A DNA stretch of 64,000 nucleotides from NCBI RefSeq assembly GCF_025200715.1, contig NZ_CP104143.1, positions 3,544,501-3,608,500 of the forward strand, given 5' to 3'. The DNA is from Rhizobium sullae (lineage in GTDB: Bacteria; Pseudomonadota; Alphaproteobacteria; Rhizobiales; Rhizobiaceae). The position numbers were made by a program, and so were the translations under genes. Every line of letters starts with the position of its first letter. The stretch's first letter is position 1. The notes under the pieces were generated by a model, which saw only the letters and a list, made by a program, of their open reading frames with translations, ran no database searches and had not been told where the DNA came from. Positions 30,733-45,678 of this stretch are shown here, piece by piece.

Positions 30733-31491
30733 ATGAGCAATACCGACGATGACAAACGAGGCTGGCGATCTTATCTGGGCACACGCTACGACGCCCGGCG
30801 CACGGTCCATCGCAGAGTTCCCTGGAAGGCATTCACGCTTTCCGCAATCAATGTGGTCGCCATTGCCTTTTTTGTCTTCGACAGACCGCTTGGACAGGCG
30901 GCGGAAAGCCTTTCGCCTCCTTTAGTAATGATCGCAGGCAACGTAACGGATATCGGCCGCCTTGCATGGATCCTTGCCGGCCTTTGCACCATTCTTGCCA
31001 CCGGTTACGCTGTTCGAAGGCGGCTTTGGAAAGTCCGCCGCAAATTCCGCATGGTCTATTTCGTCCAGATGACAGCCTATGTCGGTCTGTCGGTGATCCT
31101 GGCCAGCATCTGCGCGAACACTTTGAAATTCCTGATCGGACGGGCGCGGCCGCTTATCTATGAGCAGGAGGGCATTTTCAGTTTCTCGCCCTTGACCATG
31201 GATTTCCTGCATCAGAGCTTTCCCTCAGGTCATGCGGCCAATATCGGCGCGCTCTTTGTGGCACTCATCCTCCTTTTTCCGCACGTCAGGCTCATTTTCA
31301 TCGGTATCGGGCTCTGGCTCGGTGCAACCCGCATCATCATCGGCGTCCACTATCCAAGCGATGTCGTAGCAGGCCTGGCACTCGGTGCCTGGCTCGCATT
31401 TGCTCTCTCAATCCTTTTTGCCCGCTTCGGTCTGGTCTTTGCCATCGACCTCGAAGGCCGGCCTGTGCCGCGGCTCAGCAAGCTTATCTGA
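30733..31491 (+). CDS. PAP2-family membrane phosphatase
   Basis: The 252-residue inner-membrane protein has about six spans and all three phosphatase motifs: KFLIGRARP (motif 1, KX6RP), PSGHA (motif 2) and RIIIGVHYPSD (motif 3, RX5HX3D). The active site should face the periplasm. Members dephosphorylate lipid phosphates such as undecaprenyl pyrophosphate, phosphatidylglycerophosphate or lipid A. Rhizobia are known to remove lipid A phosphates with such enzymes, but this protein's substrate is not settled by sequence. It is the last backbone gene before the catabolic cluster. Confidence 0.9.
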   Translation: MSNTDDDKRGWRSYLGTRYDARRTVHRRVPWKAFTLSAINVVAIAFFVFDRPLGQAAESLSPPLVMIAGNVTDIGRLAWILAGLCTILATGYAVRRRLWKVRRKFRMVYFVQMTAYVGLSVILASICANTLKFLIGRARPLIYEQEGIFSFSPLTMDFLHQSFPSGHAANIGALFVALILLFPHVRLIFIGIGLWLGATRIIIGVHYPSDVVAGLALGAWLAFALSILFARFGLVFAIDLEGRPVPRLSKLI

Positions 31492-31631: not shown

Positions 31632-33137
31632 TCACATCCGCTGCCGATCGAGATCCAGATCCCGCACGGCATAATAGAGGTTTGCCTGCCGATGCGAGAG
31701 TCTCGCCCAGGCGTCGGCGGCAGTCGGGTCGGGTTCGACCTCTTCGGCGAGGCGCGACATCGCATTGGCGGCGGCGTGGAAGTCTGAATACCAGCCCGCA
31801 CCGACGGCTGCGGACATGCCGGAGCCAAGCGCGGAGGCCTCGTTCGAGAGGCTGCGGATGACCGGCAGGCCGCTGGCATCGGCGACCATCTGGCGCCAGA
31901 GCCGGCTGCCGGCGCCGCCGCCGATCACGAAGATCCGCGTCGCGATCACGCCTGTCCGGCGCATCTCAGCAAGCGAACGGTTGAATTCGAGCGTGATGGC
32001 TTCCATGCCGGCGCGGTAGAGGTGAGCCATGCCGGTTTCCGGCCCGAGCCCGACGAAGCCGGCGCGGGCATTCTTGTCCCAGTGCGGGTCCATGCAGCCC
32101 ATGAGATAAGATAGTGCGGTCACGCCGCCCGAGCCGACGCCGAGGCCGCTCGCCTCCGCTTCCAGCGACTCGAAAATCGCCGGATTGGTGCGCCCGCCGG
32201 CGAAGGTATCGATCAGCCAGTTGACGAAATAGGCGCCTCCGCGCTGGCAGCTTTCGAGGAGATAGCCGTCCCCGTCCGGCGAGACGAGTGTGCGCCAGAA
32301 GCGGCTGAGTGCCGGCGTTGCCGACCAGCACCCGCCGACCACCGCCGTGCCGAGATTGAGATAGACGACGCCGGGGCTGATCGCATTGACGCCGAGTCCG
32401 GCGCAATTGCCGTCGCCGCCACCGGCATAGACCGGGGTGCCGGGAAGGAGACCCGTTGCCGCTGCGGCCGCCGGCGTGATGCGACCGATCTTCGTACCGG
32501 GACGGTGGAGCGCGGGGAGCTTTTCCGGCGCAATGGCGAGATGGTCGAGGATCTCGCGCGACCAGACCTTGTTCTCGATGTCGAGAATGCCGAACGGGTC
32601 GCCGCTGGTCCAGCTCGCCTGTGCCGTTCCCGTCAGTTTCATCGTCAGGAAATCATGCACGCTGAGGATCTGGGCGGCCTGGTCGAGGAGCTCCGGCTGG
32701 TGTTCGCGATAATAGCGCAGGCGGTTGACGCAGGGGATGACGTCGATCGGCTTGCCGGAAATCGCATGAAGCCGCTCGGCGCCGAGCTCCTGCGCCAGGA
32801 CAGGCACGACGTCCTGCGCCCGCCGGTCGAGCCAGAGTGTCGCCGGCGCCAGCGGCTTGCGGTTCTCGTCGAGCAGGACCATCGTCTCGCGCTGGTTGGA
32901 AATCGCAATACCGTCGACACGGGCGGGATCGATCTTCTGCATGAGCGACGACAGCGCGGCGGCCGCGGCCGTCCACCAGTCCTCGGCGTCCTGCTCCGCA
33001 TGCAGCGGATGGGGCGTCGAAATTACATGGGCGGCGCGGCACTCGGCGCGCGGCGTGCCATCGGCCGTCCAGGCGATCGCCTTGACCGATTGGGTCGATG
33101 AATCCATGCCAATGACATAGCGTTCGTCCGGTTGCAT
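31632..33137 (-). CDS. FGGY-family carbohydrate kinase
   Basis: The 501-residue kinase has both FGGY halves: an N-terminal ATPase fold (YVIGMDSSTQSVKAIAWTADG, AISNQRETMVLLDE, LWLDRRAQ) and the C-terminal half with GGDGNCAGLGVNA, ITLEFNRSLAEMR and VIGGGAGSRLWRQMVADASGLPV. It is closest in style to xylulose and other ketose/polyol kinases; the substrate is not identifiable. The open frame extends 100 codons upstream, but GGAGGAGA lies before ATG 33137. It follows the SorC regulator by 97 bp on the same strand, so it is probably co-transcribed and controlled by it. Confidence 0.9.
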   Translation of the reverse strand: MQPDERYVIGMDSSTQSVKAIAWTADGTPRAECRAAHVISTPHPLHAEQDAEDWWTAAAAALSSLMQKIDPARVDGIAISNQRETMVLLDENRKPLAPATLWLDRRAQDVVPVLAQELGAERLHAISGKPIDVIPCVNRLRYYREHQPELLDQAAQILSVHDFLTMKLTGTAQASWTSGDPFGILDIENKVWSREILDHLAIAPEKLPALHRPGTKIGRITPAAAAATGLLPGTPVYAGGGDGNCAGLGVNAISPGVVYLNLGTAVVGGCWSATPALSRFWRTLVSPDGDGYLLESCQRGGAYFVNWLIDTFAGGRTNPAIFESLEAEASGLGVGSGGVTALSYLMGCMDPHWDKNARAGFVGLGPETGMAHLYRAGMEAITLEFNRSLAEMRRTGVIATRIFVIGGGAGSRLWRQMVADASGLPVIRSLSNEASALGSGMSAAVGAGWYSDFHAAANAMSRLAEEVEPDPTAADAWARLSHRQANLYYAVRDLDLDRQRM

Positions 33138-33234
33138 CCTGATCTCCTCCGCGGCGAAGGGCCGTGCCGTTGTTTTCCCTGTCGCCCGGCGCGTCCTCCC
33201 GGCCGGTGCGACAGTCTCTTCTCCCTGACGGAGG

Positions 33235-34236
33235 CTAGACCGCCAGCAGGGCCTCTCCCGTGGCAATGTCGGTGACGAAATGGGTGGCGTAGCCGGCCCC
33301 CAGCGTCGCGATGATCGCCGGGACCTTGGCCCGCCCGCCGGCGAGGCAGATTCGGCTCGGCACCTGTTTAAGCTCGTCGAGCGTGATGCCCACCATGCGT
33401 TCGTCGTGGTCCCCGCCCACCGCCGCACCATGCGCATCGATGAAGCGGCCGATGATGACGGCGACGGCGCCGCGGGCGATGTAATCGTCCACTTCCTCCC
33501 GGCTGGCGATGCCGGAGGCGCGCACCGTGCTGCGCGGACCGAGATCGCCGACGCCGAAAAGGATACGGTGGGTCGAATGGACCAGATCCATCTGCTTCTT
33601 CAGCACGGGTTCTGCCAGCAGCGCCGCCTTGAGCTCGCGGGTCGACAGAACGGCGGGTGCGAGCAGGTTGACGCAGCGCGCGTGAATGCGGTTCGACAGC
33701 AGCGACGTGCAGAGTTCCGGCGAGAAATCCGGCTCGCCGGTGGAGCTGCCCGAAACCTGCACCACGGTGAGATTGGACAGTGGCCGCGTCAGCGAGATCT
33801 GGTCGGCGGCCGCCAGCACCGTGCGGCCCCAGGCGACGCCGATGATGTCGCCATCCTCGATCTGGTCCGCGAGAACGCGCGCGCCGGCATCGCCCAGCCG
33901 CTGCGAGACGCTCTCCTCCTCGCCGTTCGGAATGACGAAAACGCCGGACAGGCCGAAGCGCTGCATCAGCGCCCGCGCGACGCTGGTGCGCCCGCCCGCC
34001 TGCGGGTTGATGTTGACCGAGACGATGCCGCGCTCGCGGGCTTCCTGCAGATGGTTGACGATCGTCGCGCGCGATACGCCGAGGCGCTTGGCGATCTCGC
34101 TCTGCGTCATTTGGTCTGCGTAGTAGAGCCAGGCGGCCCACATCACCGCGTCGTCGAACTCCGTGGGCAAGGATGACCCCGTCTCGGCGACGCCTCGCGC
34201 CGACTTCATTTCGCGTGTGGTCTTCTCCCGTCCCAT
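33235..34236 (-). CDS. SorC/DeoR-type sugar-binding transcriptional regulator
   Basis: The 333-residue regulator has an N-terminal HTH (QSEIAKRLGVSRATIVNHLQEARERGIVSVNINP) split over residues 43-78 and a C-terminal SorC sugar-phosphate-binding domain (LFGVGDLGPRSTVRASG, GRFIDAHGAAV, CLAGGRAKVPAIIATLGAGYATHFVTD). Such proteins respond to phosphorylated pathway intermediates. The GAGGA before ATG 34236 is better than the start at 34287, which lies in the operator. It is divergent from the main operon. Confidence 0.9.
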   Translation of the reverse strand: MGREKTTREMKSARGVAETGSSLPTEFDDAVMWAAWLYYADQMTQSEIAKRLGVSRATIVNHLQEARERGIVSVNINPQAGGRTSVARALMQRFGLSGVFVIPNGEEESVSQRLGDAGARVLADQIEDGDIIGVAWGRTVLAAADQISLTRPLSNLTVVQVSGSSTGEPDFSPELCTSLLSNRIHARCVNLLAPAVLSTRELKAALLAEPVLKKQMDLVHSTHRILFGVGDLGPRSTVRASGIASREEVDDYIARGAVAVIIGRFIDAHGAAVGGDHDERMVGITLDELKQVPSRICLAGGRAKVPAIIATLGAGYATHFVTDIATGEALLAV

Positions 34237-34258
34237 CCCGTCCTCTTCCCTCGCTCGT

Positions 34259-34287
34259 ATCAGACAGCGTGCAGTGTCATTTGTCAA
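34259..34287 (-). promoter_or_regulatory. Candidate promoter of the SorC regulator-kinase operon
   Basis: On the minus strand TTGACA (34287-34282), a 17-base spacer and TCTGAT (34264-34259) make a plausible sigma-70 promoter 22 bp upstream of the regulator start. The -35 lies in one arm of the large palindrome, so a bound regulator would block it. Confidence 0.5.
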
Positions 34288-34318
34288 TCGTGTCTGTCAT
34301 ATGTATTGACAAATGACA
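34275..34318. promoter_or_regulatory. Operator palindrome between the regulator and the catabolic operon
   Basis: A perfect 14-bp inverted repeat, TGTCATTTGTCAAT (34275-34288) with ATTGACAAATGACA (34305-34318), has a 16-base spacer. Extra half sites are TGTCAT (34295-34300) and TGTCATTTG (34327-34335). Each arm contains a TTGACA hexamer facing outward, so both divergent promoters could be repressed together. This is the expected site for the adjacent SorC-type protein. Confidence 0.8.
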
Positions 34319-34420
34319 GAGAGTGTTGTCATTTGCTACCGACAGCATGTGGAGGCGACCTCGTTGCCGCTTGAGCACGTGATTAGAGCCGTCGAGGAAG
34401 CGGTTCAAGGGAGGATGAAG

Positions 34421-35752
34421 ATGCCCGGCAACGCGCCTGTGGGTGGCTGGACTACGCTCATCGACGACATCGTCGCCGGCAAATGGACGAATCCGGAGAC
34501 CGGCGAGCGCGCCACGGTTCCCTATGAGTCCATCGTCATTGGCGAGAGCCTGCAGGGCCGCGAGGCCGATCTGGTCGCCGGCCTGGAGCTTGGCGAGCGC
34601 TATACGATCGTTGCCGACGCGCAGACGTTCGACGCCATGGGGGCGCGGGTGGAAAAGGCGCTGAAAAGCCTCGGGGCCGTCGACACCGTGATCCTCGATC
34701 ATCCGCACGCCGACATGGCCGCGGTCCATGACCTGACGGAAAAGCTCGCCCGGTCCGAGGCTGTCATTGCGGTCGGTTCCGGCACGATCAACGATCTCTG
34801 CAAATTCGTCACCGGCCGTACCAACCGCCGCTATGCCGTCTTCGGCACGGCCGCATCGATGAACGGCTACACCTCGACCACCGCCTCGATCACGCTCGAA
34901 AACGGTCTGAAAGTGTCGCTGCCCTCGCATGCGCCGTCGGGCTTCTTCATCGATCTCGGGGTGACGGCGGCAGCGCCTGCCTATCTTTCGGCCGCCGGCT
35001 TTGCCGATTGCCTCGTCCGCTCCGTCGCGCAGGTCGACTGGTGGATGTCACACCGCCTGCTCGGCACGCTCTATTCGACCGTTCCCTACATCATCCAGGA
35101 GGATGACGAGCGCGAACTGAACCGGCGCGCTGCCGGCATCGCCACGGGGGATATCGCCGCCAATGGCTATCTCCACCGTGTGCTGGCGCTCTGCGGCCTC
35201 GGCATCTCCTTTACCGGCATGTCGAACCACGGTTCGATGGGCGAGCACCAGGTGTCGCACTACATCGACTGCTTTGCCAGGGACAAGCATCCCGGAACGC
35301 TGCACGGCCAGCAGGTCGGCGTCGCGACGCTCTCCATGGCGCGCCTCCAGCGCATCTTCCTCGACAGCGAGACGCCGCCGCAGATCCGCCCGAGCCGGAT
35401 CGTTCCGCAGGCGATGGCGCGGCGCATGGGCGCGGAGGTTGCCGCCCAGTGCTACCAGGAAATCCAGCCGAAGATCTTCGACGCGCGCGGCGCGGCGGAG
35501 ATCAACGAGAAACTGGCCACGCTGTGGCCGGTGCTGCGCGCCGAGCTCAATGCCTTCGCCCTGCCGGTTGCGGAGATGGAGCAGTTGCTCCGTGATGCCG
35601 GCGGTCCGATGACGGCCGCCGATCTCGGCCTGCCGGTCGAGATCTATCGCGAGGCGCTGATCTACAGCCGCGAGATGCGCAACCGCTATTCCTTCCTCGA
35701 TATCGCGGCGGACACCGGGATGCTCGAGGATTTCGCCGGCGGGGAGGCGTGA
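34421..35752 (+). CDS. AraM/EgsA-like sn-glycerol-1-phosphate dehydrogenase family protein
   Basis: The 443-residue protein belongs to the iron/zinc alcohol dehydrogenase-like superfamily, glycerol-1-phosphate dehydrogenase branch. It has the NAD-binding AVGSGTINDLCKFVT, the substrate loop FGTAASMNGYTSTTASIT, and metal ligands in ADCLVRSVAQVDWW (Asp), GEHQVSHYID (His) and TLHGQQVGVAT (His). Known members reduce DHAP to sn-glycerol-1-phosphate; here a related phosphorylated polyol may be the substrate. GGGAGG lies six bases before ATG 34421; the longer frame begins inside the operator. It is the first gene of the forward operon. Confidence 0.85.
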   Translation: MPGNAPVGGWTTLIDDIVAGKWTNPETGERATVPYESIVIGESLQGREADLVAGLELGERYTIVADAQTFDAMGARVEKALKSLGAVDTVILDHPHADMAAVHDLTEKLARSEAVIAVGSGTINDLCKFVTGRTNRRYAVFGTAASMNGYTSTTASITLENGLKVSLPSHAPSGFFIDLGVTAAAPAYLSAAGFADCLVRSVAQVDWWMSHRLLGTLYSTVPYIIQEDDERELNRRAAGIATGDIAANGYLHRVLALCGLGISFTGMSNHGSMGEHQVSHYIDCFARDKHPGTLHGQQVGVATLSMARLQRIFLDSETPPQIRPSRIVPQAMARRMGAEVAAQCYQEIQPKIFDARGAAEINEKLATLWPVLRAELNAFALPVAEMEQLLRDAGGPMTAADLGLPVEIYREALIYSREMRNRYSFLDIAADTGMLEDFAGGEA

Positions 35753-35756
35753 GCGG

Positions 35757-36563
35757 ATGCGCCCGATTGCCACCATGCCGCTTGATGTTGCAGCCCGGAT
35801 CAAAGTGCTCTTCGCCGATATCGACGATACGCTGACGAATGAGGGCCGGCTGCCCGCCGTTGCCTATGCCGCGCTGGAGCGCCTGAGTGCGGCCGGCATT
35901 GCGGTTGCGCCGATCACCGGCCGCCCGGCCGGCTGGTGCGACATGATTGCCCGCATGTGGCCGGTGGCCGGCGTCGTCGGCGAGAACGGCGCCTTCTATT
36001 TCTCCTATGACCAGCAGACCCGCCGTATGCGCCGCAACTTTGCCATCGACGATGCCCAGCGGGCGGCGGACCGCGAAAGGCTTGAAGCTGTCCGTACGCG
36101 TATCCTCGCCGAGGTTCCGGGTGCGGCGATCTCGGCCGACCAGCTCTACCGTGAAGCCGATCTTGCCATCGACTTCTGCGAGGATGTGCCGCCGCTTGCC
36201 GATGGCGAGGTGGACCGGATCAAGCGCATCTTCGAGCAGGAGGGTGCTGTGGCCAAGGTGTCGTCCATCCATGTGAACGGCTGGTACGGAGCCTATGACA
36301 AGCTGACGATGAGCCGCAGCTTTGCCGCCGACATTCTCGGCGTCGATCTGGAGGCTGACAAGTCGCGGATCGTTTTCGTCGGCGACAGTCCGAATGACGC
36401 GCCGATGTTCGGCTTCTTTCCGAATGCCTGCGGTGTCGCCAATGTGCTGGCTCTCCGGAACCGCATGGATGCGGCGCCCGCCTATGTGACGACGGCGCGC
36501 GGCGGGTACGGCTTCGTCGAGGTGGCGAACCATATCCTCGCGGCACGAAGGGAAGTGGCATGA
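35757..36563 (+). CDS. HAD-family hydrolase (Cof/SPP-like, type IIB)
   Basis: The 268-residue phosphatase-like protein has HAD motif I FADIDDTLT, motif II region PITGRPAGW, the type IIB cap in the middle and motif IV VFVGDSPNDAPMF. It most resembles sucrose-phosphate or Cof-type sugar phosphatases. It starts 4 bp after the dehydrogenase stop and overlaps the next (broken) gene by 4 bp, so it belongs to the same transcript. It could dephosphorylate a pathway intermediate, for example a glycerol- or polyol-phosphate, but the substrate is inferred only from context. Confidence 0.87.
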   Translation: MRPIATMPLDVAARIKVLFADIDDTLTNEGRLPAVAYAALERLSAAGIAVAPITGRPAGWCDMIARMWPVAGVVGENGAFYFSYDQQTRRMRRNFAIDDAQRAADRERLEAVRTRILAEVPGAAISADQLYREADLAIDFCEDVPPLADGEVDRIKRIFEQEGAVAKVSSIHVNGWYGAYDKLTMSRSFAADILGVDLEADKSRIVFVGDSPNDAPMFGFFPNACGVANVLALRNRMDAAPAYVTTARGGYGFVEVANHILAARREVA

Positions 36564-36988
36564 GCGGCGTGGTCTACGACATCGCCATCATCGGCGGCGG
36601 CATCAACGGCGCGGGCATCGGCGGCGACGCAGCCGGGCGCGGGCTGAAGGTGCTGCTCGTCGAACAGGCCGATCTCGGCTCATCTGGCCGCTGCGCTTCG
36701 AACGCGAGGCACGCCGTCTGGTCCGGCATTACGGGCTCGAGGTGCGCGCGATCCTCGGCACGGCGACGAGCCGTCCCGAGCTTGGCCGCGATTTCGGCGG
36801 CTCCATCACGGCGGCGGAAGTCGGCTTTGACGACGCAGGAATACACCCGGACGGCGGCCGACATCGTCTGGCGACTGACGAAATCGGGCCTGCGGATGAG
36901 CCCGGCTGAGATCGAGGCACTCGACCTCTACATGCGGGAGCGACGGGAGATCGCCTCCGCATCGGCGGAGTGGCGGGCTCCGGAATAA
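36560..36988 (+). pseudogene. Remnant of a GlpD-type FAD-dependent glycerol-3-phosphate dehydrogenase
   Basis: The N-terminal FAD motif is intact (IAIIGGGINGAGIGGDAAGRGLKVLLVEQADLGS, about residues 7-40). The sequence then jumps into another frame from 36679 (LIWPLRFE, then EARRLVRHYGLEVRAILG... and LGRDFGGSITAAEVGF), then back to the first frame at about 36830 (TAADIVWRLTKSGLRMSPAEIEALDLYM). These pieces match separated parts of GlpD, which is normally about 500 residues; only 142 codons remain. Large internal deletions and frame changes make it a pseudogene. It overlaps the HAD gene by 4 bp as an intact operon member would. Confidence 0.85.
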
Positions 36989-37126
36989 CAAAGCTCCGCC
37001 ACCTGTCCCTTCGGGGCGGGTGGCGGAGAGACAGGAAGCGCCGATGGCGCTTCAGGAAAGACGAGGAGGACGGGACGCCCGCGGCTGGACTGCGGATGCG
37101 CCGCTGTACCCGGGAGGAAGAAGGCA

Positions 37127-38014
37127 ATGCCCATCGTGCAGGTCAAACGCATCGCGATCTCGGATTCGCCATGGCCATGGCTCTTGCCGCTCATCGCGCT
37201 GCTGGTGGTCTTCACCATCTATCCGCTGATCTACAATATCTGGCTGAGCTTCCATGAATTCGCCCCAGCCACCCGAGGGCTGAAATTCGTCGGCTTCGCC
37301 AACTGGGTGCAGCTTTGGAACGACACGCGCTTCTGGAGCGCGCTCGGGGTCACCTTCGTCTATTTCGCCGTGGCGCTCACCCTCGAGATCATCCTCGGCA
37401 TGGCGATCGCCCTGCTGCTCGATGCGGAGCTGCCGGGCTTCGGCGTGCTGCGGGCCGTCCTGTCGATGACGCTGGTGATCCCGCCGGCGATTGCCGGCAT
37501 GATGTTCCTTCTGATGGAAGACCCGCAATTCGGCGTGCTGCCCTATCTGCTTGGCCAGTTCGGCCTGCTCGACAAGTCGACGCCGATCCTCGCCACCTCG
37601 TCGCTGGCATTGGCCGGGGTTCTCATTGCCGAGATCTGGCAGTGGACGCCCTTCATGGTTCTGATCTTCATGGCCGGCCTTCGTGCCCTTCCCGTGGAGC
37701 CCTACGAAGCGGCGAGCATCGACGGCGCCTCGTCCTTCCAGATGTTCCGCCGGCTGACCCTTCCGATGATGTCGAAGGTCATCGCGGTCGCGGTGCTGTT
37801 GCGCGGCATCGATCTGTTCCGCGTCTTCGACTACGTCTTCGTCATGACTTCGGGAGGACCCGGTACGGCGACCTATACGGTCAGCCTCTATGCCTGGCAG
37901 CAGACCTTCTCCTTTCTGAAATGGGGCTATGGCGCAACGCTGAGCCTCACCAGCCTCATCATCGTCATGGTGATGGCCAACCTCTTCATCCGCATCGCAA
38001 AGGTCAGGTGGTAA
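37127..38014 (+). CDS. Carbohydrate ABC transporter permease (MalF/UgpA type)
   Basis: The 295-residue inner-membrane protein has about six spans. The EAA loop (EPYEAASIDGASSFQMFRRLTLPMM, about residues 190-214) docks on the ATPase. The N-terminus (LLPLIALLVVFTIYPLIYNIWLSF) is typical of the MalF/UgpA class of the CUT1 family. A plausible AGGAAG lies before the ATG. It is followed after one base by the second permease. The transported sugar or polyol is unknown. Confidence 0.92.
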   Translation: MPIVQVKRIAISDSPWPWLLPLIALLVVFTIYPLIYNIWLSFHEFAPATRGLKFVGFANWVQLWNDTRFWSALGVTFVYFAVALTLEIILGMAIALLLDAELPGFGVLRAVLSMTLVIPPAIAGMMFLLMEDPQFGVLPYLLGQFGLLDKSTPILATSSLALAGVLIAEIWQWTPFMVLIFMAGLRALPVEPYEAASIDGASSFQMFRRLTLPMMSKVIAVAVLLRGIDLFRVFDYVFVMTSGGPGTATYTVSLYAWQQTFSFLKWGYGATLSLTSLIIVMVMANLFIRIAKVRW

Positions 38015-38015
38015 C

Positions 38016-38897
38016 ATGCAACAGAGCAAATCCGCCCGCGCGCTGCGCACCCTTGCCGGCTGGGTCGTCGTCGGGATCTTCTTCTTCCCGATCTACTTCT
38101 GGACCTCGGTCGCCTTCCGCGACGCCAAGGACATCTTCAACTGGCCGCCGATCATCGTCGATTTCGTGCCAACCGTGAAGAATTTCGAGCAGGTCTTCGG
38201 CATCTCGCTCGGCTTCTCCTTCGGCCAGCAGGCCGCGGTGACGCCCGGCGGCGGCAATTTCTACATGGCGCCGCGGCTGTGGGACTCGATCGTCGTCGCC
38301 TCGATGTCGACGGTCCTCGCCATCACCGTCGCGACGCTTGCGGCCTATTCGCTGTCCCGCATGCATTTCCGCGGCAGGCACGAATTCGTCAACTGGGTGC
38401 TCTCGACGCGCATGATGCCGCCTGTCGCCGTCGCCATCCCAATGTTCTTCATCTTCAAGCAGTTCAGCCTGCTCGATACCTATATCGGCGTCATCCTGAT
38501 CCACGGGCTGATGAACCTGCCGCTCGCGGTGCTGCTGCTGAAGAGCTTCTTCGACGATATTCCCGCCGAGATCGACGAGAGCGCGCTTCTCGACGGCGCC
38601 TCGCGCTGGATGATCTTCCGCCGCATCGTGCTGCCGATGGCCAAGGGCGGCATCGCCGCCAGCGCGGTACTCTGCTTCATCTTCTCGTGGACCGAGTTCC
38701 TGTTCGTCCTGACGCTGACGCAGACGGGCCTGAAGACGGTACCCGTCGTGTCCTCGACCTTCGTTACATCAATCGGCACCGCCTGGGGCAACATGGCCGC
38801 GCTCGGCGCCGCCGCGATCGTGCCGGCCTTCATCGTCATTCTGCTGGTTCAGCGTCATCTCGTGCGCGGCCTGACGATGGGCTCGCTGAAGCAATAA
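38016..38897 (+). CDS. Carbohydrate ABC transporter permease (MalG/UgpE type)
   Basis: The 293-residue partner permease has about six spans, an EAA loop (EIDESALLDGASRWMIFRRIVLPMAKGG, about residues 187-214) and a short C-terminus (LVRGLTMGSLKQ) characteristic of the MalG/UgpE class. It begins one base after the first permease. An imperfect hairpin (CAGGCC 38903-38908 with GGCCTG 38918-38923) separates it from the binding-protein gene. Confidence 0.92.
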   Translation: MQQSKSARALRTLAGWVVVGIFFFPIYFWTSVAFRDAKDIFNWPPIIVDFVPTVKNFEQVFGISLGFSFGQQAAVTPGGGNFYMAPRLWDSIVVASMSTVLAITVATLAAYSLSRMHFRGRHEFVNWVLSTRMMPPVAVAIPMFFIFKQFSLLDTYIGVILIHGLMNLPLAVLLLKSFFDDIPAEIDESALLDGASRWMIFRRIVLPMAKGGIAASAVLCFIFSWTEFLFVLTLTQTGLKTVPVVSSTFVTSIGTAWGNMAALGAAAIVPAFIVILLVQRHLVRGLTMGSLKQ

Positions 38898-38980
38898 TCC
38901 GGCAGGCCGAGGGGGCTGGCCTGTCGTGTGAAGAGATACCCGGTGCCAATTCCGGCGTTGGATATGGAGGAGGAATACCA

Positions 38981-40477
38981 ATGAACGAACGTGATAGAAA
39001 ATCATACCTGGCGGCGGTCACCGACCGCTTCGTCCGGGGCGGCATGGACCGCCGCGAATTCCTGCGCGTCGCCGGCAAGCTCGGCCTCGGCGCCACGGCT
39101 CTCGGCATGGGCTTCGGCAACCGCCCGTTCATGCTGAACAAGGCCGTCGCCCAGGAACAGCTGAAGCCGTCGGCCGATGTCATGGCCTGGCTCAAGGATG
39201 TTGGTAAACCCTTCGCCGGCACGACGCTGAAGCTGGCGACGGAATCGACCCCGCCGTCGAATGCGATCAACTCTCAGCTGAAGCAGTATTTCGAGGAAGC
39301 GACCGGCATCAAGGTCGAGATCGAAGTCCTGCCGCTTGAGCAGGTTCTGCAGAAGCTGACGCTCGACGTCGCCTCCTCGCTCGGCACCTACGACCTCTAC
39401 TATATCGACCAGAGCTGGTCGGCCTCGTTCAGCAAGGACGTTTTCGACCCGCGCGAGCAGATAGAGGCGAATGCCGAACTCGCCATGCCGAACTACAATA
39501 TCGACGATTTCCTGCCGGCGCTCGTCGACGGTATCTCCAAGTACGAGGATCGCTGGGTCGGCGTTCCCTACGACATCCCTATCTTCATCATGATCTACCG
39601 CAAGGATATCTACGAGAAGCTCGGCCTCAAGGCTCCGACCACCTTCGAGGAACTGCTGAACAACTCGGCGACGATCACCAAGGAAATGGGCCCGACGACC
39701 TTCGGTTATGCCGGCCAGATGAAGTCCGGCCACTATGCGCTGGAATGCGAGTGGACCTCGATGCTCTGGGGCAATGGCGGCTCGATCTTCAGCGCCGACA
39801 AGAAGTTCGTCGGCAATGACGAACGCGGCATTGCCGCTCTCGACTACTACACCAAGCTGAAGGCCACCATGCCTCCGGGCGTCGACGGCTGGACCTGGGA
39901 CGGCCAGGGCCAGGCGGTGGCGCAGGGCGTTGCGGCATCCATGCTCTCCTGGGGCGAGTTCTTCCCCTATTTCGACGATGCCAGCCAGACCAAGGTCTCC
40001 GGCCTCTGCGAAGCCGTCATCCCGCCGCAGCCGATCGCGCTGCGCAAGCCTTCGGAATGCGGTTACGGCGAAATCCCCGGCGTCGGCCACCAGGGCGGTT
40101 CCTCGCTCGCCGTGTCGCGCTATTCGAAGAGCCCCCATGCCGCCTGGATCTTCATGCAGTGGGCGACCTGCGCCGACACCCAGGCGCTGATCACCGCGCT
40201 CGGCGGCGGCACGGGCCCGACCCGCGCCTCCGTCTATGACGATCCGCGCGTCGTCGCCAACGCCCGCGTCGGCGCCGGCACGACGCGCCACCTGCCGGTC
40301 GTGCGCGAGACAATCGCCAAGTACATGGGGTCCGAGCCGGATCTGCCGCAGTGGGCGCAGATCTCCTCCGACACCATCCCGGTCGGCCTCGGCAAGTACT
40401 TCGCCGGCAATTACGGCTCGTCGAAGGAAGCCATGGACGACATCGGCGCCCAGATCGAAACGATCGTGCAGGGCTGA
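38981..40477 (+). CDS. Extracellular solute-binding protein of the carbohydrate ABC importer
   Basis: The 498-residue binding protein (family 1) has a twin-arginine signal (MDRREFLRVAGKLGLGATAL, about residues 22-41), so it is probably exported folded by Tat, and a two-lobed core (LKLATESTPPSNAINSQLKQYFEEATGIKVEIEVLP is near its start). GGAGGAGG lies before ATG 38981; the open frame extends upstream but overlaps the permease. It comes third, after both permeases. The ligand cannot be predicted. Confidence 0.92.
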   Translation: MNERDRKSYLAAVTDRFVRGGMDRREFLRVAGKLGLGATALGMGFGNRPFMLNKAVAQEQLKPSADVMAWLKDVGKPFAGTTLKLATESTPPSNAINSQLKQYFEEATGIKVEIEVLPLEQVLQKLTLDVASSLGTYDLYYIDQSWSASFSKDVFDPREQIEANAELAMPNYNIDDFLPALVDGISKYEDRWVGVPYDIPIFIMIYRKDIYEKLGLKAPTTFEELLNNSATITKEMGPTTFGYAGQMKSGHYALECEWTSMLWGNGGSIFSADKKFVGNDERGIAALDYYTKLKATMPPGVDGWTWDGQGQAVAQGVAASMLSWGEFFPYFDDASQTKVSGLCEAVIPPQPIALRKPSECGYGEIPGVGHQGGSSLAVSRYSKSPHAAWIFMQWATCADTQALITALGGGTGPTRASVYDDPRVVANARVGAGTTRHLPVVRETIAKYMGSEPDLPQWAQISSDTIPVGLGKYFAGNYGSSKEAMDDIGAQIETIVQG

Positions 40478-40488
40478 TGGGTCAGACA

Positions 40489-40519
40489 GGAGGGGGCGCT
40501 GCCAGGCGGCGCCCCCTCC
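40489..40519 (+). other. Intercistronic hairpin after the binding-protein gene
   Basis: A perfect 11-bp GC-rich stem (40489-40499 with 40509-40519) has a nine-base loop and no T run. It lies between the binding-protein gene and the SDR gene. Such hairpins often protect upstream binding-protein mRNA from 3' exonucleases and raise its level over downstream genes. The role is inferred from position and structure. Confidence 0.65.
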
Positions 40520-40558
40520 ATCCGACATCTTTCCCAGACGACGGAAACGGAGGAGACC

Positions 40559-41284
40559 ATGGCAGACAAACCGTTGATCGCAATCACAGGCGCGAGCTCG
40601 GGCATCGGCGAGGCGGTCGCGCGGGCCTTTTCGAAGGCCGGCCATCCGCTGCTGCTAATCGCCCGCAGGCTCGATCGGCTGGAAGGGCTGGGGCTGCCGA
40701 ACGCGGTGCTGAAGAAGGCCGACGTGCGCGACCGCGCTGCGCTGGTCGAGGCGGTGCGGGAGGCGGAAGCGCAATACGGCCCCGTCGACATGATGTTTGC
40801 CAATGCTGGCGTCGCGCGGCTGGGCGACATCGCCACGCAGCCACCGGAAGACTGGGACGAGATGATCGACATCAACACCAAGGGCGTGATGAACAGCGTC
40901 CATGCGGTGATGAACGGCATGATCGCCCGCAAGCACGGCACGCTGATGATGATGAGCTCGATTGCCGGCCGGCAGGTCTATCCGGATCACACCGTCTATT
41001 GCGGCACGAAATTCTTCGTCCATGCCGTCTCGGAAAGCCTGCGCGGCTATATGGCGCCGCATGACGTGCGCGTCATCGTCATCTCGCCGGGCATCATCGA
41101 TACTGAAGTGCTCGACGGCGTGCGCGACGAGACGACACTTGCCAACTACAAGGCGAACAAGGCGGCGATCGGCGGCGGTATCTCAGCGGACGTCGTAGCG
41201 GACCTGATCCTTAATGCCTACCAGCTGCCGCAGCGTGCCATCGTCCAGGAAATCGTCATCACGCCGACAAGGCAGACCTATTGA
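40559..41284 (+). CDS. Short-chain dehydrogenase/reductase
   Basis: The 241-residue SDR has the cofactor motif ITGASSGIGEAVARAF, NAGVARLGD, the catalytic Ser in MMSSIAGR and YCGTKFF (YxxxK). Length and motifs fit the classical SDR type (NAD(P)-dependent oxidation of alcohols or sugars). GGAGGAGA precedes the ATG. It lies in the catabolic operon, where it most likely oxidises the imported polyol or a derived alcohol; the substrate is unknown. Confidence 0.9.
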   Translation: MADKPLIAITGASSGIGEAVARAFSKAGHPLLLIARRLDRLEGLGLPNAVLKKADVRDRAALVEAVREAEAQYGPVDMMFANAGVARLGDIATQPPEDWDEMIDINTKGVMNSVHAVMNGMIARKHGTLMMMSSIAGRQVYPDHTVYCGTKFFVHAVSESLRGYMAPHDVRVIVISPGIIDTEVLDGVRDETTLANYKANKAAIGGGISADVVADLILNAYQLPQRAIVQEIVITPTRQTY

Positions 41285-41346
41285 AACATCGGCCGCCTCT
41301 GCCGCGAGCGGCGGAGCATGGCGCCCGACACATGGAGTGGAGCCCT

Positions 41347-42411
41347 ATGGCGACCGTGGAATACCAGCGCATCGGAAAGTCCTTCGGTGCCGTGAGGATC
41401 ATGCGCGACATCTCGTTCAAGATCGAGGACCATGAATTCGTGGTCCTGCTCGGGCCATCCGGCTGTGGAAAGACGACCCTTCTGCGCATGACGGCCGGGC
41501 TCGAGGGTATCAGCGAGGGCGACCTGAAGATCGGCGAGAAGCGGGTCAACGACGTCCATCCGCGCGACCGCTCGATCGCGATGGTGTTTCAAAACTACGC
41601 GCTCTACCCTACGATGAAGGTCTACGACAACATCGCCTTCAGCCTGGAAGTGGCCAAGGTGCCGCCGGCCGAGATCCGGAAGAAGGTGGAGTGGGCCGCC
41701 GCGACGCTGAACCTCACCGACTATCTCGGCCGCTACCCGAAGGAGCTTTCGGGCGGCCAGCGCCAGCGCGTCGCCATGGGCCGTGCCATGGTTCGCGAGG
41801 CGCACGTGTTTCTCTTCGACGAACCCTTGTCGAACCTCGATGCCAAACTGCGCGCCCATATGCGCACCGAGATCCGCCAGCTTCATAACCGGCTGAAGAC
41901 GACGACCATCTATGTCACGCACGACCAGATCGAGGCGATGACCATGGCCGACAAGATCGTCGTCATGCGCGCCGGCAAGATCGAGCAGATCGGCTCACCG
42001 GACGACGTCTACGACCGGCCGGCCAGTAAATATGTTGCCGATTTCATCGGATCGTCGGCGATCAATTTCCTCCCCGGAACGGTTGTCGTGGCAGATGGCG
42101 TGCCTGCCGTCGACACGGCGACCGGACGGGTGCCGATCGACCCCGCGACCACCGCAAAGCCCGGCCAGAAGGTCATCATCGGCCTGCGGCCGACGGATAT
42201 TCTGGTCGACAGCGCCGGCCCGCTTGCGGCGAAGTCGGTGTTGCTGGAGCGGCTCGGCCACGACGCTCAGCTGTTCTGCGATGGCCCCGACGGCCGTTTC
42301 ATCGCGGTGGTCGACAAGGCTGCCCGCTTCGCCGAGGGCTCGGACGTCCGCTTCGCGGTTCCGACCTCCAAGGTCCATGTTTTCGACGCCGGGACCGAAG
42401 TCCGCATCTAA
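41347..42411 (+). CDS. Carbohydrate ABC transporter ATP-binding protein (MalK/UgpC type)
   Basis: The 354-residue ATPase has Walker A GPSGCGKTT, the Q-loop VFQNYALYPTMKV, signature LSGGQRQRVAMGRAMV, Walker B VFLFDEPLSNLD, switch His in YVTHDQIEAM and a C-terminal TOBE/OB domain from about residue 235. It completes the CUT1 importer with the two permeases and the binding protein. Frames open from 41281, but ATG 41347 has TGGAG about five bases upstream and gives the usual MATVEYQRIGKSFG start. Confidence 0.94.
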   Translation: MATVEYQRIGKSFGAVRIMRDISFKIEDHEFVVLLGPSGCGKTTLLRMTAGLEGISEGDLKIGEKRVNDVHPRDRSIAMVFQNYALYPTMKVYDNIAFSLEVAKVPPAEIRKKVEWAAATLNLTDYLGRYPKELSGGQRQRVAMGRAMVREAHVFLFDEPLSNLDAKLRAHMRTEIRQLHNRLKTTTIYVTHDQIEAMTMADKIVVMRAGKIEQIGSPDDVYDRPASKYVADFIGSSAINFLPGTVVVADGVPAVDTATGRVPIDPATTAKPGQKVIIGLRPTDILVDSAGPLAAKSVLLERLGHDAQLFCDGPDGRFIAVVDKAARFAEGSDVRFAVPTSKVHVFDAGTEVRI

Positions 42412-42489
42412 CGCTGCGGCTTTGCTCTCCCTCTTGACGACACGCTGAGCCGGACCGGCGCTGCCCGGCGGCCAGGGAAAGGAATATCC

Positions 42490-44538
42490 ATGAAATCGCG
42501 CTGGTCAGACACCGAGTTCCACGCCGTGGTCGACGCCTATGTCGCTAGGGGCATCAACCGCGACCTCGCCATCCGCACCTATACGACCCGGCTTCTCGGC
42601 TCGGACCCCGAACTGGTGCTGCATGGCGGCGGCAACACATCGGTGAAGACCGTCTTTGCTGAGATGGACGGATCGACGGTCGATGTGCTGTGCGTGAAGG
42701 GCAGCGGCTGGGACATGGGCACGATCGAGCCGCAGGGCCTGCCCGCCGTCCGGCTCGAACCGCTGAAGGCGATGGTGGCCTTCGAGATCCTGTCGGACGA
42801 CGACATGGTCATGCTGCAGCGCCGGCTTCTCCTCGATCCGACCGCCCCCAACCCCTCGGTCGAGGCGATCCTGCATGCGCTGCTGCCGTTCAAGCATATC
42901 GACCACACTCACGCCAATGCGATCGTCTCGCTGACCAACCAGCCGCATGGCGAGGAGATTGTCCGCGAACTCTTCCCCAAATCGATCATCGTTCCCTATG
43001 TCATGCCCGGCTTCGATCTGGCCAAGGCCTGCGATGCGGGCTTCCGGGCCAATCCGGAGGGCGACGGGATGATCCTGTTGAAGCATGGCATCTTCACCTG
43101 GTCGGATGACCCGCGCGTCGCCTATGAGGACATGATCGCCAAGATCGACCAGGCCGAACAGCGGATCGCCAAGGGCCGGTCGAAGCCGTTCCGCAGCATC
43201 GCCGTTCCGGCCAGGCTCGCCCCGGCAGCCGAGATCACGCCGATCCTGCGCGGCGCGCTCGCCATCGATACCGGCGTCGAGGGCGCCCCCCGGCGCTTCG
43301 TCCTCGAACATCGCGCCACAGACAAGGTCCTCGATTTCTGCAATGCGGAGACGGTCGAAAGCCTGGTGCGCCGCGGCAATGCGACGCCTGAACATGTCAT
43401 CCACATCAAACGCTTCGGCGTGGCCCTGCCGGCGCCCGAAGCCGCCAAGCTGGACGACTGGGCCGTCAAGGTCCGGCAGGCGGTTGCCGCCTACGAGGCC
43501 AACTACGAGGAATATTTCGAGCGCAACAATGCCCGCGTTGGCGGCCACAAGCGGATGCTCGACCCCAAGCCGCGGGTCTTCTATGTCGCCGGTGTCGGCC
43601 TGTTTGCCGCGGGTGCGGCCCGCAAGAACGCCATCGTCGCCGCCGACGTTGCGGAGGCCACCATCAATGTCATCACCAATGCCGAGGGAATTGAAGCCTT
43701 CGAGGCGCTGTCGGAGGCGGATCTTTTCGACATCGAATACTGGTCTCTGGAGCAGGCGAAGCTGACCAAGGTGCAGGAGAAGCCGCTGACGCGACAGGTG
43801 GCGATCGTCACCGGTGCGGCCAGCGGCCTCGGCCTTGCCGTGGCGGAAGCCCTGAAGGCAGAGGGTGCGGAACTGGCCCTCTTCGACATAGCCGAAGAGG
43901 CGCTGACCACCACCGCGAAGACGCTCGGCGCGCTTCCCGTCGTCTGCGACGTCACGGATCCCGCGGCGGTCGATGCGGCAGTGGCAAAGGTCGCCGCGCA
44001 TTTCGGCGGGGTCGACATCCTGATCTCGAATGCCGGCGCCGCCTTCCAGGGCAGCCTGCTGACGGTGGACGAGGCGACGTTCCGCAAGGCGTTCGACCTG
44101 AATTTCTGGAGCCATCATTATATCGCCCGCGCGGTCGTGCGGGTGATGGAACAGCAGAAGACCGGCGGCGCGCTCGTCTTCAACGTCTCGAAGCAGGCGG
44201 TGAATCCGGGCGCGGATTTCGGCCCCTACGGCACGTCGAAGGCGGCGCTGATGGCGCTGATGCGACAATATGCAGTGGAGCATGGTGCCTCGGGCATCAC
44301 CTCGAACGCCGTTAACGCCGACCGCATCCGCACCGGCCTGATGACCGACAAGATGGTCGAGGATCGCTCCAGGGCACGCGGCCTGACGCCCGAGGCCTAT
44401 ATGCGGGGCAACATGCTCGGCCGCGAGGTGACCGGCGCGGATGTCGCCGCAGCCTTCGTGCATCTCGCCAAGGCCCGCACATCCACCGGCGCGGTCATCA
44501 CCGTCGATGGCGGCAATGTCGCGGCGATGATGCGTTAG
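42490..44538 (+). CDS. Bifunctional class II aldolase/short-chain dehydrogenase (RhaD-like)
   Basis: The 682-residue fusion has an N-terminal class II aldolase domain (about residues 20-400; metal ligands in DHTHANAI and a later His) and a C-terminal SDR domain from about 435 (VTGAASGLGLAVAEAL, NAGAAFQG, YGTSKAALMALM). In rhizobia the rhamnose-pathway protein of this design both oxidises an intermediate and splits the phosphorylated ketose to DHAP or lactaldehyde. No rhamnose kinase, isomerase or mutarotase is nearby, so a different substrate is likely. It is the penultimate gene of the operon. Confidence 0.9.
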   Translation: MKSRWSDTEFHAVVDAYVARGINRDLAIRTYTTRLLGSDPELVLHGGGNTSVKTVFAEMDGSTVDVLCVKGSGWDMGTIEPQGLPAVRLEPLKAMVAFEILSDDDMVMLQRRLLLDPTAPNPSVEAILHALLPFKHIDHTHANAIVSLTNQPHGEEIVRELFPKSIIVPYVMPGFDLAKACDAGFRANPEGDGMILLKHGIFTWSDDPRVAYEDMIAKIDQAEQRIAKGRSKPFRSIAVPARLAPAAEITPILRGALAIDTGVEGAPRRFVLEHRATDKVLDFCNAETVESLVRRGNATPEHVIHIKRFGVALPAPEAAKLDDWAVKVRQAVAAYEANYEEYFERNNARVGGHKRMLDPKPRVFYVAGVGLFAAGAARKNAIVAADVAEATINVITNAEGIEAFEALSEADLFDIEYWSLEQAKLTKVQEKPLTRQVAIVTGAASGLGLAVAEALKAEGAELALFDIAEEALTTTAKTLGALPVVCDVTDPAAVDAAVAKVAAHFGGVDILISNAGAAFQGSLLTVDEATFRKAFDLNFWSHHYIARAVVRVMEQQKTGGALVFNVSKQAVNPGADFGPYGTSKAALMALMRQYAVEHGASGITSNAVNADRIRTGLMTDKMVEDRSRARGLTPEAYMRGNMLGREVTGADVAAAFVHLAKARTSTGAVITVDGGNVAAMMR

Positions 44539-44649
44539 GAAAGACCGGAGGCGGACCTCCTCTCTGTTGGAGGGGGGAAGGTTCGCGCAGGCCGGGCCTG
44601 CGTGGTGCATAGGCGCAGGGCAAGTGGAAGACACCGAAAGGAACACAGC

Positions 44650-45678
44650 ATGGCTACTATCCTCATCCTCGGCGCGGGTGTCATGGGATCGGCACTGGCC
44701 GTCCCGGCAAGCGACAACGGCCATACGGTGACGCTTGCCGGCACCCCGCTCGACACGCAGGTGATCACCCGTCTCAAGGAGAAGGGCGGCGTGCATCCCA
44801 AGCTCGACAAACCGCTTGCCGACACGGTGACGATCCTCGATGACCGGGAGGTGACACCCGAGCATGCCGCCGCCGCCGATTTCGTCATCATCGGCGTCTC
44901 GAGCCCCGGCATCGACTGGGCGGTCCGGCGGCTCAACGATCTGCTGCGAATGAGGAAACCGGTCGCCTTCGTCACCAAGGGGCTCGACCGCCAGGGCGAC
45001 CGCATCGTGACCTATGCCGAAACCCTGCCGGGCCTGGTGCCGAATATCGCCTCCTTCATCGGCATCGGCGGGCCCTGCATCGCCAAGGAACTGTCAAACC
45101 GCTTCCCGACGCTGAGCATCTATGCCAGCCGCGACCGCGTGGCGGCGGAGACTGCCGCCGGGCTGATGCGAACACCCTATTACAGGCTTGCCATTGCCGA
45201 GGACGCAACCGGCGTCGAGGCCTGCGCGGCGCTCAAGAACTTCTTTGCCATCGGTGTCAGCGCAATGCAGACGCGTTACCCCGACCGGACGCGAGCCGAC
45301 GGACAGTCAAAGAACCCGACGGCGGGTGCCTTCAACCAAGCCGCACAGGAGATGGCCGCGCTCTGCGAATATATCGGCGGCGTACGCGCCACCGCCTTCG
45401 ACCTCGCCGGGCTCGGCGATCTCCATGTGACCGTCGGTGGCGGCCGCAACAGCCGGCTGGGCCACGGGCTCGGCGGGAACCGTACGGTCCCGGATGTGAT
45501 GAGCGGCGAGCTGGCGGGCGAAACCGTCGAAGGTATCGATACAGCGAGGATCGTGGACGCCCTGCTCCGGCAGGTCGACGACGCGGCGACGCGGTTTCCG
45601 CTGGCGACGGCCATCACCCGCGCGGTGACGGGCAACGGGACGCTCGATTTCGACTTCGACCGCCTGTTCGGCTGGTAG
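44650..45678 (+). CDS. GpsA-like NAD(P)-dependent glycerol-3-phosphate dehydrogenase family protein
   Basis: The 342-residue protein has the Rossmann motif ILGAGVMGSALA, then VTKGLDRQGDRIVTY, the GGPCIAKEL loop and the catalytic-Lys region CAALKNFFAIGVSAM. The length is normal for the GpsA family, but several GpsA positions differ, so it may act on a related phosphorylated polyol. The normal reaction interconverts DHAP and sn-glycerol-3-phosphate. GAAAGGAA precedes ATG 44650. It is last in the operon and ends before a shared terminator. Confidence 0.87.
   Translation: MATILILGAGVMGSALAVPASDNGHTVTLAGTPLDTQVITRLKEKGGVHPKLDKPLADTVTILDDREVTPEHAAAADFVIIGVSSPGIDWAVRRLNDLLRMRKPVAFVTKGLDRQGDRIVTYAETLPGLVPNIASFIGIGGPCIAKELSNRFPTLSIYASRDRVAAETAAGLMRTPYYRLAIAEDATGVEACAALKNFFAIGVSAMQTRYPDRTRADGQSKNPTAGAFNQAAQEMAALCEYIGGVRATAFDLAGLGDLHVTVGGGRNSRLGHGLGGNRTVPDVMSGELAGETVEGIDTARIVDALLRQVDDAATRFPLATAITRAVTGNGTLDFDFDRLFGW

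Follow-up and report, generated by a model that had tools for sequence, protein, structure and literature searches.

A high-GC gene island of about 14 kb, flanked by genes for a PAP2 protein and a major facilitator superfamily (MFS) protein in a Rhizobium sullae-like chromosome, raises the question of which pathway its products carry out. The island is located in a window of 64,000 nucleotides (assembly GCF_025200715.1, contig NZ_CP104143.1, positions 3,544,501 to 3,608,500 of the forward strand), to which all coordinates without a locus handle refer. Its products include an FGGY carbohydrate kinase, a relative of glycerol-1-phosphate dehydrogenase (G1PDH), a HAD phosphatase, a CUT1 importer, a short-chain dehydrogenase/reductase (SDR) and a class II aldolase fused to another SDR domain. 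Together they probably form a catabolic system, in which an imported compound would be converted to a ketose-1-phosphate and cleaved to dihydroxyacetone phosphate (DHAP) and a hydroxyaldehyde. The specific route proposed here, with a probability of about 0.35, is an undescribed alditol-1-phosphate pathway in which an FGGY alditol kinase, a 2-dehydrogenase of the G1PDH family and an aldolase of the FucA/RhaD type would lead to DHAP without an isomerase. Gene content, conservation, motifs and insertion are reported below as observed, and reactions, regulation and substrate as what these suggest.

Conservation of the gene set

The gene set is common to many Rhizobiales and some other Alphaproteobacteria, and is not a one-off of this chromosome. 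An initial genome scan gave 52 loci (designated here by L numbers), to which plasmid records (five opened of 44 matched) and 20 extended loci out of 47 new genome loci were added. Counts are based on 47 loci with a match of at least 48% to the G1PDH-like protein and at least 7 kb on both sides; eight further loci fall below 48%, and nine of 64 were cut because a flank was shorter than 7 kb. Locus L001, which is from the same species, short loci and the Firmicutes loci L041-L052 were excluded. The 47 loci are not independent, since many are from close relatives within Mesorhizobium. They contain the SorC-family regulator in 46 cases, the FGGY kinase and the HAD phosphatase in 44 each, the SDR and a CUT1 importer in 40 each, and a CUT2 importer in four. 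The aldolase-SDR fusion is present in 21 and a FucA-type aldolase in 11, so that 30 have an aldolase of either kind; GlpD occurs in 20, GpsA in 16, and either HAD or GpsA in 45. The preliminary description had asked for the same set in other genomes; because it recurs in dozens of them, a chance grouping of these genes is excluded.

In L122 and L123 the importer, SDR, G1PDH, HAD, FGGY, GpsA and FucA genes form a single row, from which SorC and GlpD diverge, while in L063, L064, L128 and L129 a CUT2 importer replaces the CUT1 importer together with the SDR. Copies of the set are also carried by predicted conjugative plasmids, for example R. etli p42a and R. leguminosarum pRL1. Some copies look decayed: L005 has fragments of permease, binding-protein and GpsA genes (L005:12200-18200), and no intact CUT1 set was found in L061, on p42a. 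For the G1PDH-like gene alone, at an E-value of 1e-50 or better, 30 of the 297 genomes sampled from the family carry a match, as do 17 of the 385 sampled from the class.

The kinase, the dehydrogenase and the aldolase

The kinase gene (31632..33137, minus strand) encodes an FGGY protein whose nearest family model is XylB (291 bits, below the cut-off of 380). Its score against the GlpK model is only 149 bits, where 590 would be needed, yet it shares with GlpK the motif QRET, at residues 81-84 of the translation starting at 33134. In GlpK, the Arg and Glu of this motif hold glycerol. QRET is present in all 63 kinase rows and in E. coli GlpK, and absent from six other E. coli FGGY proteins. Eight of the ten host FGGY proteins were read at this position, and three of them have QRET or QRES: the island kinase, a GlpK (737 bits against a cut-off of 498) and a GlpK-like kinase, which at 404 and 413 bits stays below the cut-offs. 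Further host FGGY genes lie beside GlpD-family genes (L180:13950-19028 and L179:2672-6784, the latter in G000 C2); one of these pairs is followed by a SorC-looking gene and resembles the eryAB-D order.

The G1PDH/AraM-family protein (Fe-ADH_2 domain, metal-dependent) is encoded at 34313..35752 on the plus strand in its longest frame, with homologues suggesting a start near 34415. Residues D232, H312 and H331, the metal ligands of the family, are kept in 20 of 20 rows and align with the same residues of solved G1PDHs. At position 184, Asn is found in 18 of the 20 rows and Asp in L036 and L037; Asp is also the residue in all four solved relatives shown, of which two are near-identical. The protein scores 145 bits against the G1PDH model NF002022, which has a cut-off of 413, and 31 bits against the glycolaldehyde reductase model. 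The solved G1PDH entry 9h4x, which may be AraM, is related to it only distantly, with 105 bits. Relatives are annotated as 'sn-glycerol-1-phosphate dehydrogenase', a label that is perhaps misleading. Since sn-glycerol-1-phosphate and DHAP are the three-carbon case of an alditol-1-phosphate and its ketose-1-phosphate, a G1PDH relative would be a natural enzyme for alditol-1-phosphates. A family of about 222 residues, perhaps a TIM barrel, is encoded near divergent-clade G1PDH-like genes (L039:9273-9947, L116:7311-7994, L120:10808-11476, and L072, L074, L075, L083, L113 and L121); two of three scanned members have weak NanE, His_biosynth and PcrB matches below cut-off, and the third has none.

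The class II aldolase with PSVE, HTH and H motifs is fused to an SDR domain with Asp after β2 (42490..44538, plus strand). In SDRs, Asp at this place marks the NAD type and Arg-Arg the NADP type. The fusion passes the model NF006192, 'bifunctional aldolase/short-chain dehydrogenase' (1086 bits, cut-off 639), and stays below that of RhaD_aldol-ADH (466 bits, cut-off 568). The likeness to RhaD that the preliminary description had seen holds, with a score short of the RhaD cut-off. The residues H141, H143 and H212 of E. coli RhaD align with histidines of the fusion; E117 does not meet the Glu of PSVE. Another full-length relative of the fusion elsewhere in the genome, 34% identical, is a putative RhaD. 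In Mesorhizobium, a SorC-type gene precedes relatives of the fusion (49-51%) in both loci examined out of eight (L198 and L199). These relatives gave no substrate clue: two of six neighbouring proteins scanned (one from L200) had a family, acyl-CoA synthetase and efflux MFS.

While the window has the fusion, a FucA-type aldolase takes its place in nine related loci. These aldolases share 42-54% identity with E. coli FucA, and G28, N29, E73, H92, H94, Y113 and H155, which make up the FucA active site including the zinc ligands and the catalytic Glu, are kept in 20 of 20 rows (about 15 distinct genes). FucA enzymes split ketose-1-phosphates into DHAP and an aldehyde. Since aldolases with these residues replace the fusion, the reaction of the island aldolase would likewise appear to be the cleavage of a ketose-1-phosphate to DHAP and a hydroxyaldehyde. 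In L122, the FucA gene is followed, in the same orientation, by a glycerate 2-kinase-like gene (L122:14963-16219) that scores 206 bits, below the cut-off; it hinted at glyceraldehyde, but was discounted because no other locus among those compared for it has one.

The separate SDR (40559..41284, plus strand) has Arg-Arg after β2. Its closest solved relative is 3p19, a 'putative blue fluorescent protein' (230 bits); the sulfoacetaldehyde reductase 6ixj (95 bits) also ranks ahead of galactitol and ribitol dehydrogenases, which score 81 bits or less. Because these two outscore the polyol dehydrogenases, reduction of an aldehyde is the favoured role, with polyol oxidation a possible one.

The proposed pathway and its alternatives

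In the proposed pathway, the CUT1 importer would take up an alditol, either a pentitol or a hexitol, and the FGGY kinase would phosphorylate one end of it. The G1PDH-like enzyme would then oxidise C2 of the alditol-1-phosphate, and the class II aldolase, the fusion here and the FucA type elsewhere, would cleave the resulting ketose-1-phosphate to DHAP and glycolaldehyde or glyceraldehyde. The hydroxyaldehyde might be oxidised by the fused NAD-type SDR domain or reduced by the separate NADP-type SDR. Glyceraldehyde could pass through glycerol to glycerol phosphate, which GlpD, the GpsA-like protein and the G1PDH-like enzyme would return to DHAP; the presence of GlpD in 20 of the 47 loci would fit such a C3 aldehyde. 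The HAD phosphatase probably clears dead-end or excess sugar phosphates, and SorC probably senses a phosphorylated intermediate. As judged from sequence, the kinase, the G1PDH-like enzyme and the aldolase would suffice to take an alditol to DHAP and an aldehyde. An alditol is favoured as the presumed substrate because of the conserved core (G1PDH-like enzyme, FGGY kinase, SorC and HAD) and the kinase motif. EryA and EryB provide a precedent for pairing a kinase with a GlpD-family protein. By analogy with the stereochemistry of FucA, D-ribulose-1-phosphate from ribitol or D-arabitol, or the C6 analogues, would fit. Import, phosphorylation and aldol cleavage to DHAP, as the preliminary description had suggested, agree with the gene content, while the oxidation that it placed before phosphorylation may instead come after it. 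That the kinase acts first and the G1PDH-like enzyme serves as an alditol-1-phosphate dehydrogenase is a tentative assignment, with somewhat less than an even chance.

Several observations weigh against this pathway. XylB, the nearest model of the kinase, is a ketose 5-kinase. LsrK, which is no alditol kinase, also has Arg and Glu at the QRET position (MREG), while the host kinase beside a GlpD-family gene in L180, which we take to be EryA, lacks QRET, and the three divergent-clade FGGY proteins read have QLDG instead. No FGGY of the island kinase's clade is present in three Shinella-type loci, and 17 of the 47 loci have no aldolase nearby. Eight whole genomes behind those 17 loci all encode a relative of the fusion at 49-51% and another at 33-34%, and seven of the eight also have a FucA relative. 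In the eight loci below 48%, the set is looser (FGGY 4, either aldolase 4, HAD 3, GpsA 4 and GlpD 0, with SorC in 3, SDR in 4 and CUT1 in 4). The SDR is kept in 40 of 47 loci even though a minimal kinase-first route needs none, and its weaker solved relatives include polyol dehydrogenases. For the binding protein, the solved structure 5iai is ahead of the next fold, a maltose binder, by only 1.7 Z units. Finally, a G1PDH-like gene and a HAD gene form a pair without sugar genes in a small alphaproteobacterial genome of 1.8 Mb (L118:9465-11557), flanked by genes resembling, by eye, hflX and accC. The two may thus also function apart from sugar operons.

The persistence of the SDR speaks for a rival order in which oxidation comes first, an arrangement nearly as likely as the one proposed. 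Here the SDR would convert the alditol to a ketose, the FGGY kinase would yield the ketose-1-phosphate for the aldolase, and the aldehyde would be reduced by the G1PDH-like enzyme, much as a haloarchaeal G1PDH relative reduces glycolaldehyde, and oxidised by the fused SDR domain. The nearness of the kinase to the XylB model and the ribitol 2-dehydrogenase and galactitol dehydrogenase among the SDR's solved relatives agree with this order, as does a haloarchaeal pathway in which a HAD phosphatase works together with a ribulose-1-phosphate aldolase of the FucA type and with a reductase of glycolaldehyde that carries the annotation G1P dehydrogenase (PMC9700705). However, the best SDR relatives are not polyol dehydrogenases, its NADP-type motif suits reduction, the SDR is missing from the four CUT2 variants, and the G1PDH-like enzyme is much closer to the G1PDH model than to that of glycolaldehyde reductase.

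Two further explanations are unlikely. The true substrate might be a conjugate of glycerol, or glycerol phosphates in both configurations, with the G1PDH-like enzyme, GlpD and the GpsA-like protein acting on sn-glycerol-1- and 3-phosphate, HAD releasing glycerol and the aldolase being secondary. Three glycerol-phosphate dehydrogenase families and a glycerol-kinase motif in one set, and a GlpD in L007 that is a true GlpD by score (745 bits, cut-off 360), speak for it; but neither a phosphodiesterase nor a glycosidase was found among the scanned cluster proteins, an aldolase is kept in 30 of 47 loci, and UgpB (6r1b) is only at rank 40 for the binding protein in the VIA list. Equally doubtful is a role outside the main route for the G1PDH-like enzyme and HAD, as a pair that repairs metabolites or forms glycerol and accompanies several FGGY pathways, like AraL and AraM in Bacillaceae. 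The pair in L118 would agree with this, as would the Geobacillus arabinose cluster, where araL (sugar phosphatase) and araM (glycerol-1-dehydrogenase) have been postulated as part of an alternative pentose pathway (PMC4194401). Yet HAD and FGGY in 44 of 47 loci each (the G1PDH-like gene being in all by selection) is a tight association for accessory genes, and GpsA occurs without HAD in L115, L117, L124, L126 and L127.

If the alditol-1-phosphate pathway is correct, catabolism in Alphaproteobacteria makes widespread use of an enzyme family known for its part in archaeal lipid stereochemistry. Once solved, the pathway would provide assignments for several protein families of root-associated bacteria together, and it may yield a G1PDH relative with new chemistry.

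Other genes and the insertion site of the island

Genes were called from open frames and family scans of ten cluster proteins, and the two permeases were identified through the annotation of relatives. All the genes named in the preliminary description are present. The SorC-family regulator with a Sugar-bind domain is encoded at 33235..34287 on the minus strand in its longest frame, although translation may begin later, at 34236 or 34209. The importer genes, all on the plus strand, comprise permease 1 (37127..38014) and permease 2 (38016..38897), both matching annotated sugar ABC permeases at the same place in L062 and L065, the solute-binding protein (38981..40477), closest in sequence and fold to 5iai (Arad_9887), and an ATPase of the UgpC/MalK type (41347..42411), assigned by family scan. 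Structures were predicted for the binding protein and the HAD protein only, and the VIA lists were no basis for excluding any fold. The HAD-IIB phosphatase (35757..36563, plus strand) has PH1421 and TA0175 as its closest folds.

The GlpD gene is broken, as had been noted earlier. The remnant (36560..36988, plus strand; about 410 nucleotides) consists of pieces at 36566-36703, 36703-36828 and 36818-36976, which match residues 3-48, 420-461 and 459-511 of the intact GlpD of L062 on R. leguminosarum plasmid pRL1. Since only these stretches match, about 370 internal codons are missing in a large deletion. The same remnant is found in L001, while glpD is intact at this place in relatives including L004, L006 and L007. 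The genome has two more GlpD-family genes, with 59% and 52% identity to the L062 protein, that could substitute for the lost copy, as far as sequence can indicate. A GlpD tree, which did not include the genome's C1 copy, placed neither E. coli GlpD nor the one in L180 with respect to those of the cluster. Ten Mesorhizobium loci, L017 (L017:12325-13344) among them, have a second regulator of SorC type (28-29%) at the place of glpD in many Rhizobium loci. The GpsA-like NAD-dependent dehydrogenase (44647..45678, plus strand) has GpsA-like motifs and a best GpsA model score of 134, below the cut-off of 257 and the other listed GpsA cut-offs.

The cluster is a laterally acquired island inserted between the PAP2 gene, which ends at 31491, and the MFS gene (45892-47778, minus strand). 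GC is 0.61-0.69 in the island genes, compared with 0.57-0.60 in leuB, PAP2, MFS and asd. A PAP2 match is present in 39 of 40 genomes of the genus, the window genome counted. Nine other genomes of the genus have PAP2 at 74% or more, and in the eight that were read the MFS gene (84-85% identical) is adjacent to it in five and separated by one extra PAP2-like gene in three; no cluster gene lies between them in any of the eight. The G1PDH-like gene is also absent from the four other genomes that the family sample lists under the same genus. It is these relatives, carrying the site without the cluster or lacking the G1PDH-like gene, that indicate acquisition at PAP2/MFS. The insertion reported earlier between leuB and asd is thus confirmed as an island, although its exact site is PAP2/MFS and not directly leuB/asd. 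The window yielded no tRNA gene. R. sullae L001 has an identical layout, with most genes 99-100% identical, the SDR 91% and the glpD remnant 94%. Its SDR match (L001:16247-16912) covers 222 codons compared with 241, which points to an in-frame difference between the two. The native MFS protein of 628 residues seems, by eye, to have its membrane segments interrupted by a long hydrophilic insert; over its length it is 84-85% identical in the eight relatives.

Relation to known systems

The absence of an isomerase, claimed earlier, is borne out by the ten scanned cluster proteins, none of which is one. Rhamnose, fucose, xylose and arabinose pathways are ruled out by this absence together with the model scores. 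The preliminary description had also held that the combination matches no known pathway. No named pathway was found for it in the papers searched, and the combination is not unique to the window. No paper describing the gene set was found by title or abstract, in a search largely without subscription papers and with long lists viewed at their head. This silence is weak evidence of novelty. A presumed xylitol importer of similar gene order in Dinoroseobacter shibae (Dshi_0546-0549) could not be confirmed, the locus tags appearing in no paper searched. The L035 binding protein was matched in nine of 394 genomes of the L035 family, two of them being the L034 and L035 genomes.

The closest parallels each share part of the set. 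The erythritol cluster eryABCD has an FGGY kinase, a GlpD-family dehydrogenase and a SorC regulator together, as in the island. In the window genome, L180 likewise combines a kinase with a GlpD-family gene and with what is, by eye, a gene of SorC type. However, the L180 kinase has no QRET, and counterparts of the island's importer, aldolase and G1PDH-like enzyme are not known from the ery set. An FGGY kinase, a GlpD remnant and a SorC are present in the island; general scans showed no further erythritol enzyme and gave no hit to an EryA or EryC model, and no search directed at these two was made. The Bacillaceae ara operon with araL and araM (araABDLMNPQ in B. subtilis) has an FGGY kinase, a class II aldolase-family protein, a phosphatase, a G1PDH and a CUT1 importer like the island, but has an isomerase and an epimerase and is not known to include an SDR fusion, GlpD or a GpsA-like gene. 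The haloarchaeal non-carboxylating pentose bisphosphate pathway likewise reaches DHAP with a HAD phosphatase, a FucA-type aldolase and an annotated G1P dehydrogenase; it starts from guanosine via ribose-1,5-bisphosphate and has six enzymes, with neither importer nor GlpD among them (PMC9700705). Its reductase belongs to a different model from that of the island's G1PDH-like enzyme.

The L-fucose (fucK-fucA) and L-rhamnose (rhaB-rhaD) pathways, like the island, use an FGGY kinase and a class II aldolase to produce DHAP and a hydroxyaldehyde. The FucA active-site residues are kept in the island's relatives, and the fusion resembles RhaD-type bifunctional enzymes. Unlike these pathways, the island shows no isomerase and adds G1PDH-like, HAD, GlpD and GpsA-like genes; its kinase motif is unlike those of FucK and RhaB, and its aldolase falls below the RhaD cut-off. 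The island is a variant of this known kinase-aldolase catabolism with an unexpected member of the G1PDH family.

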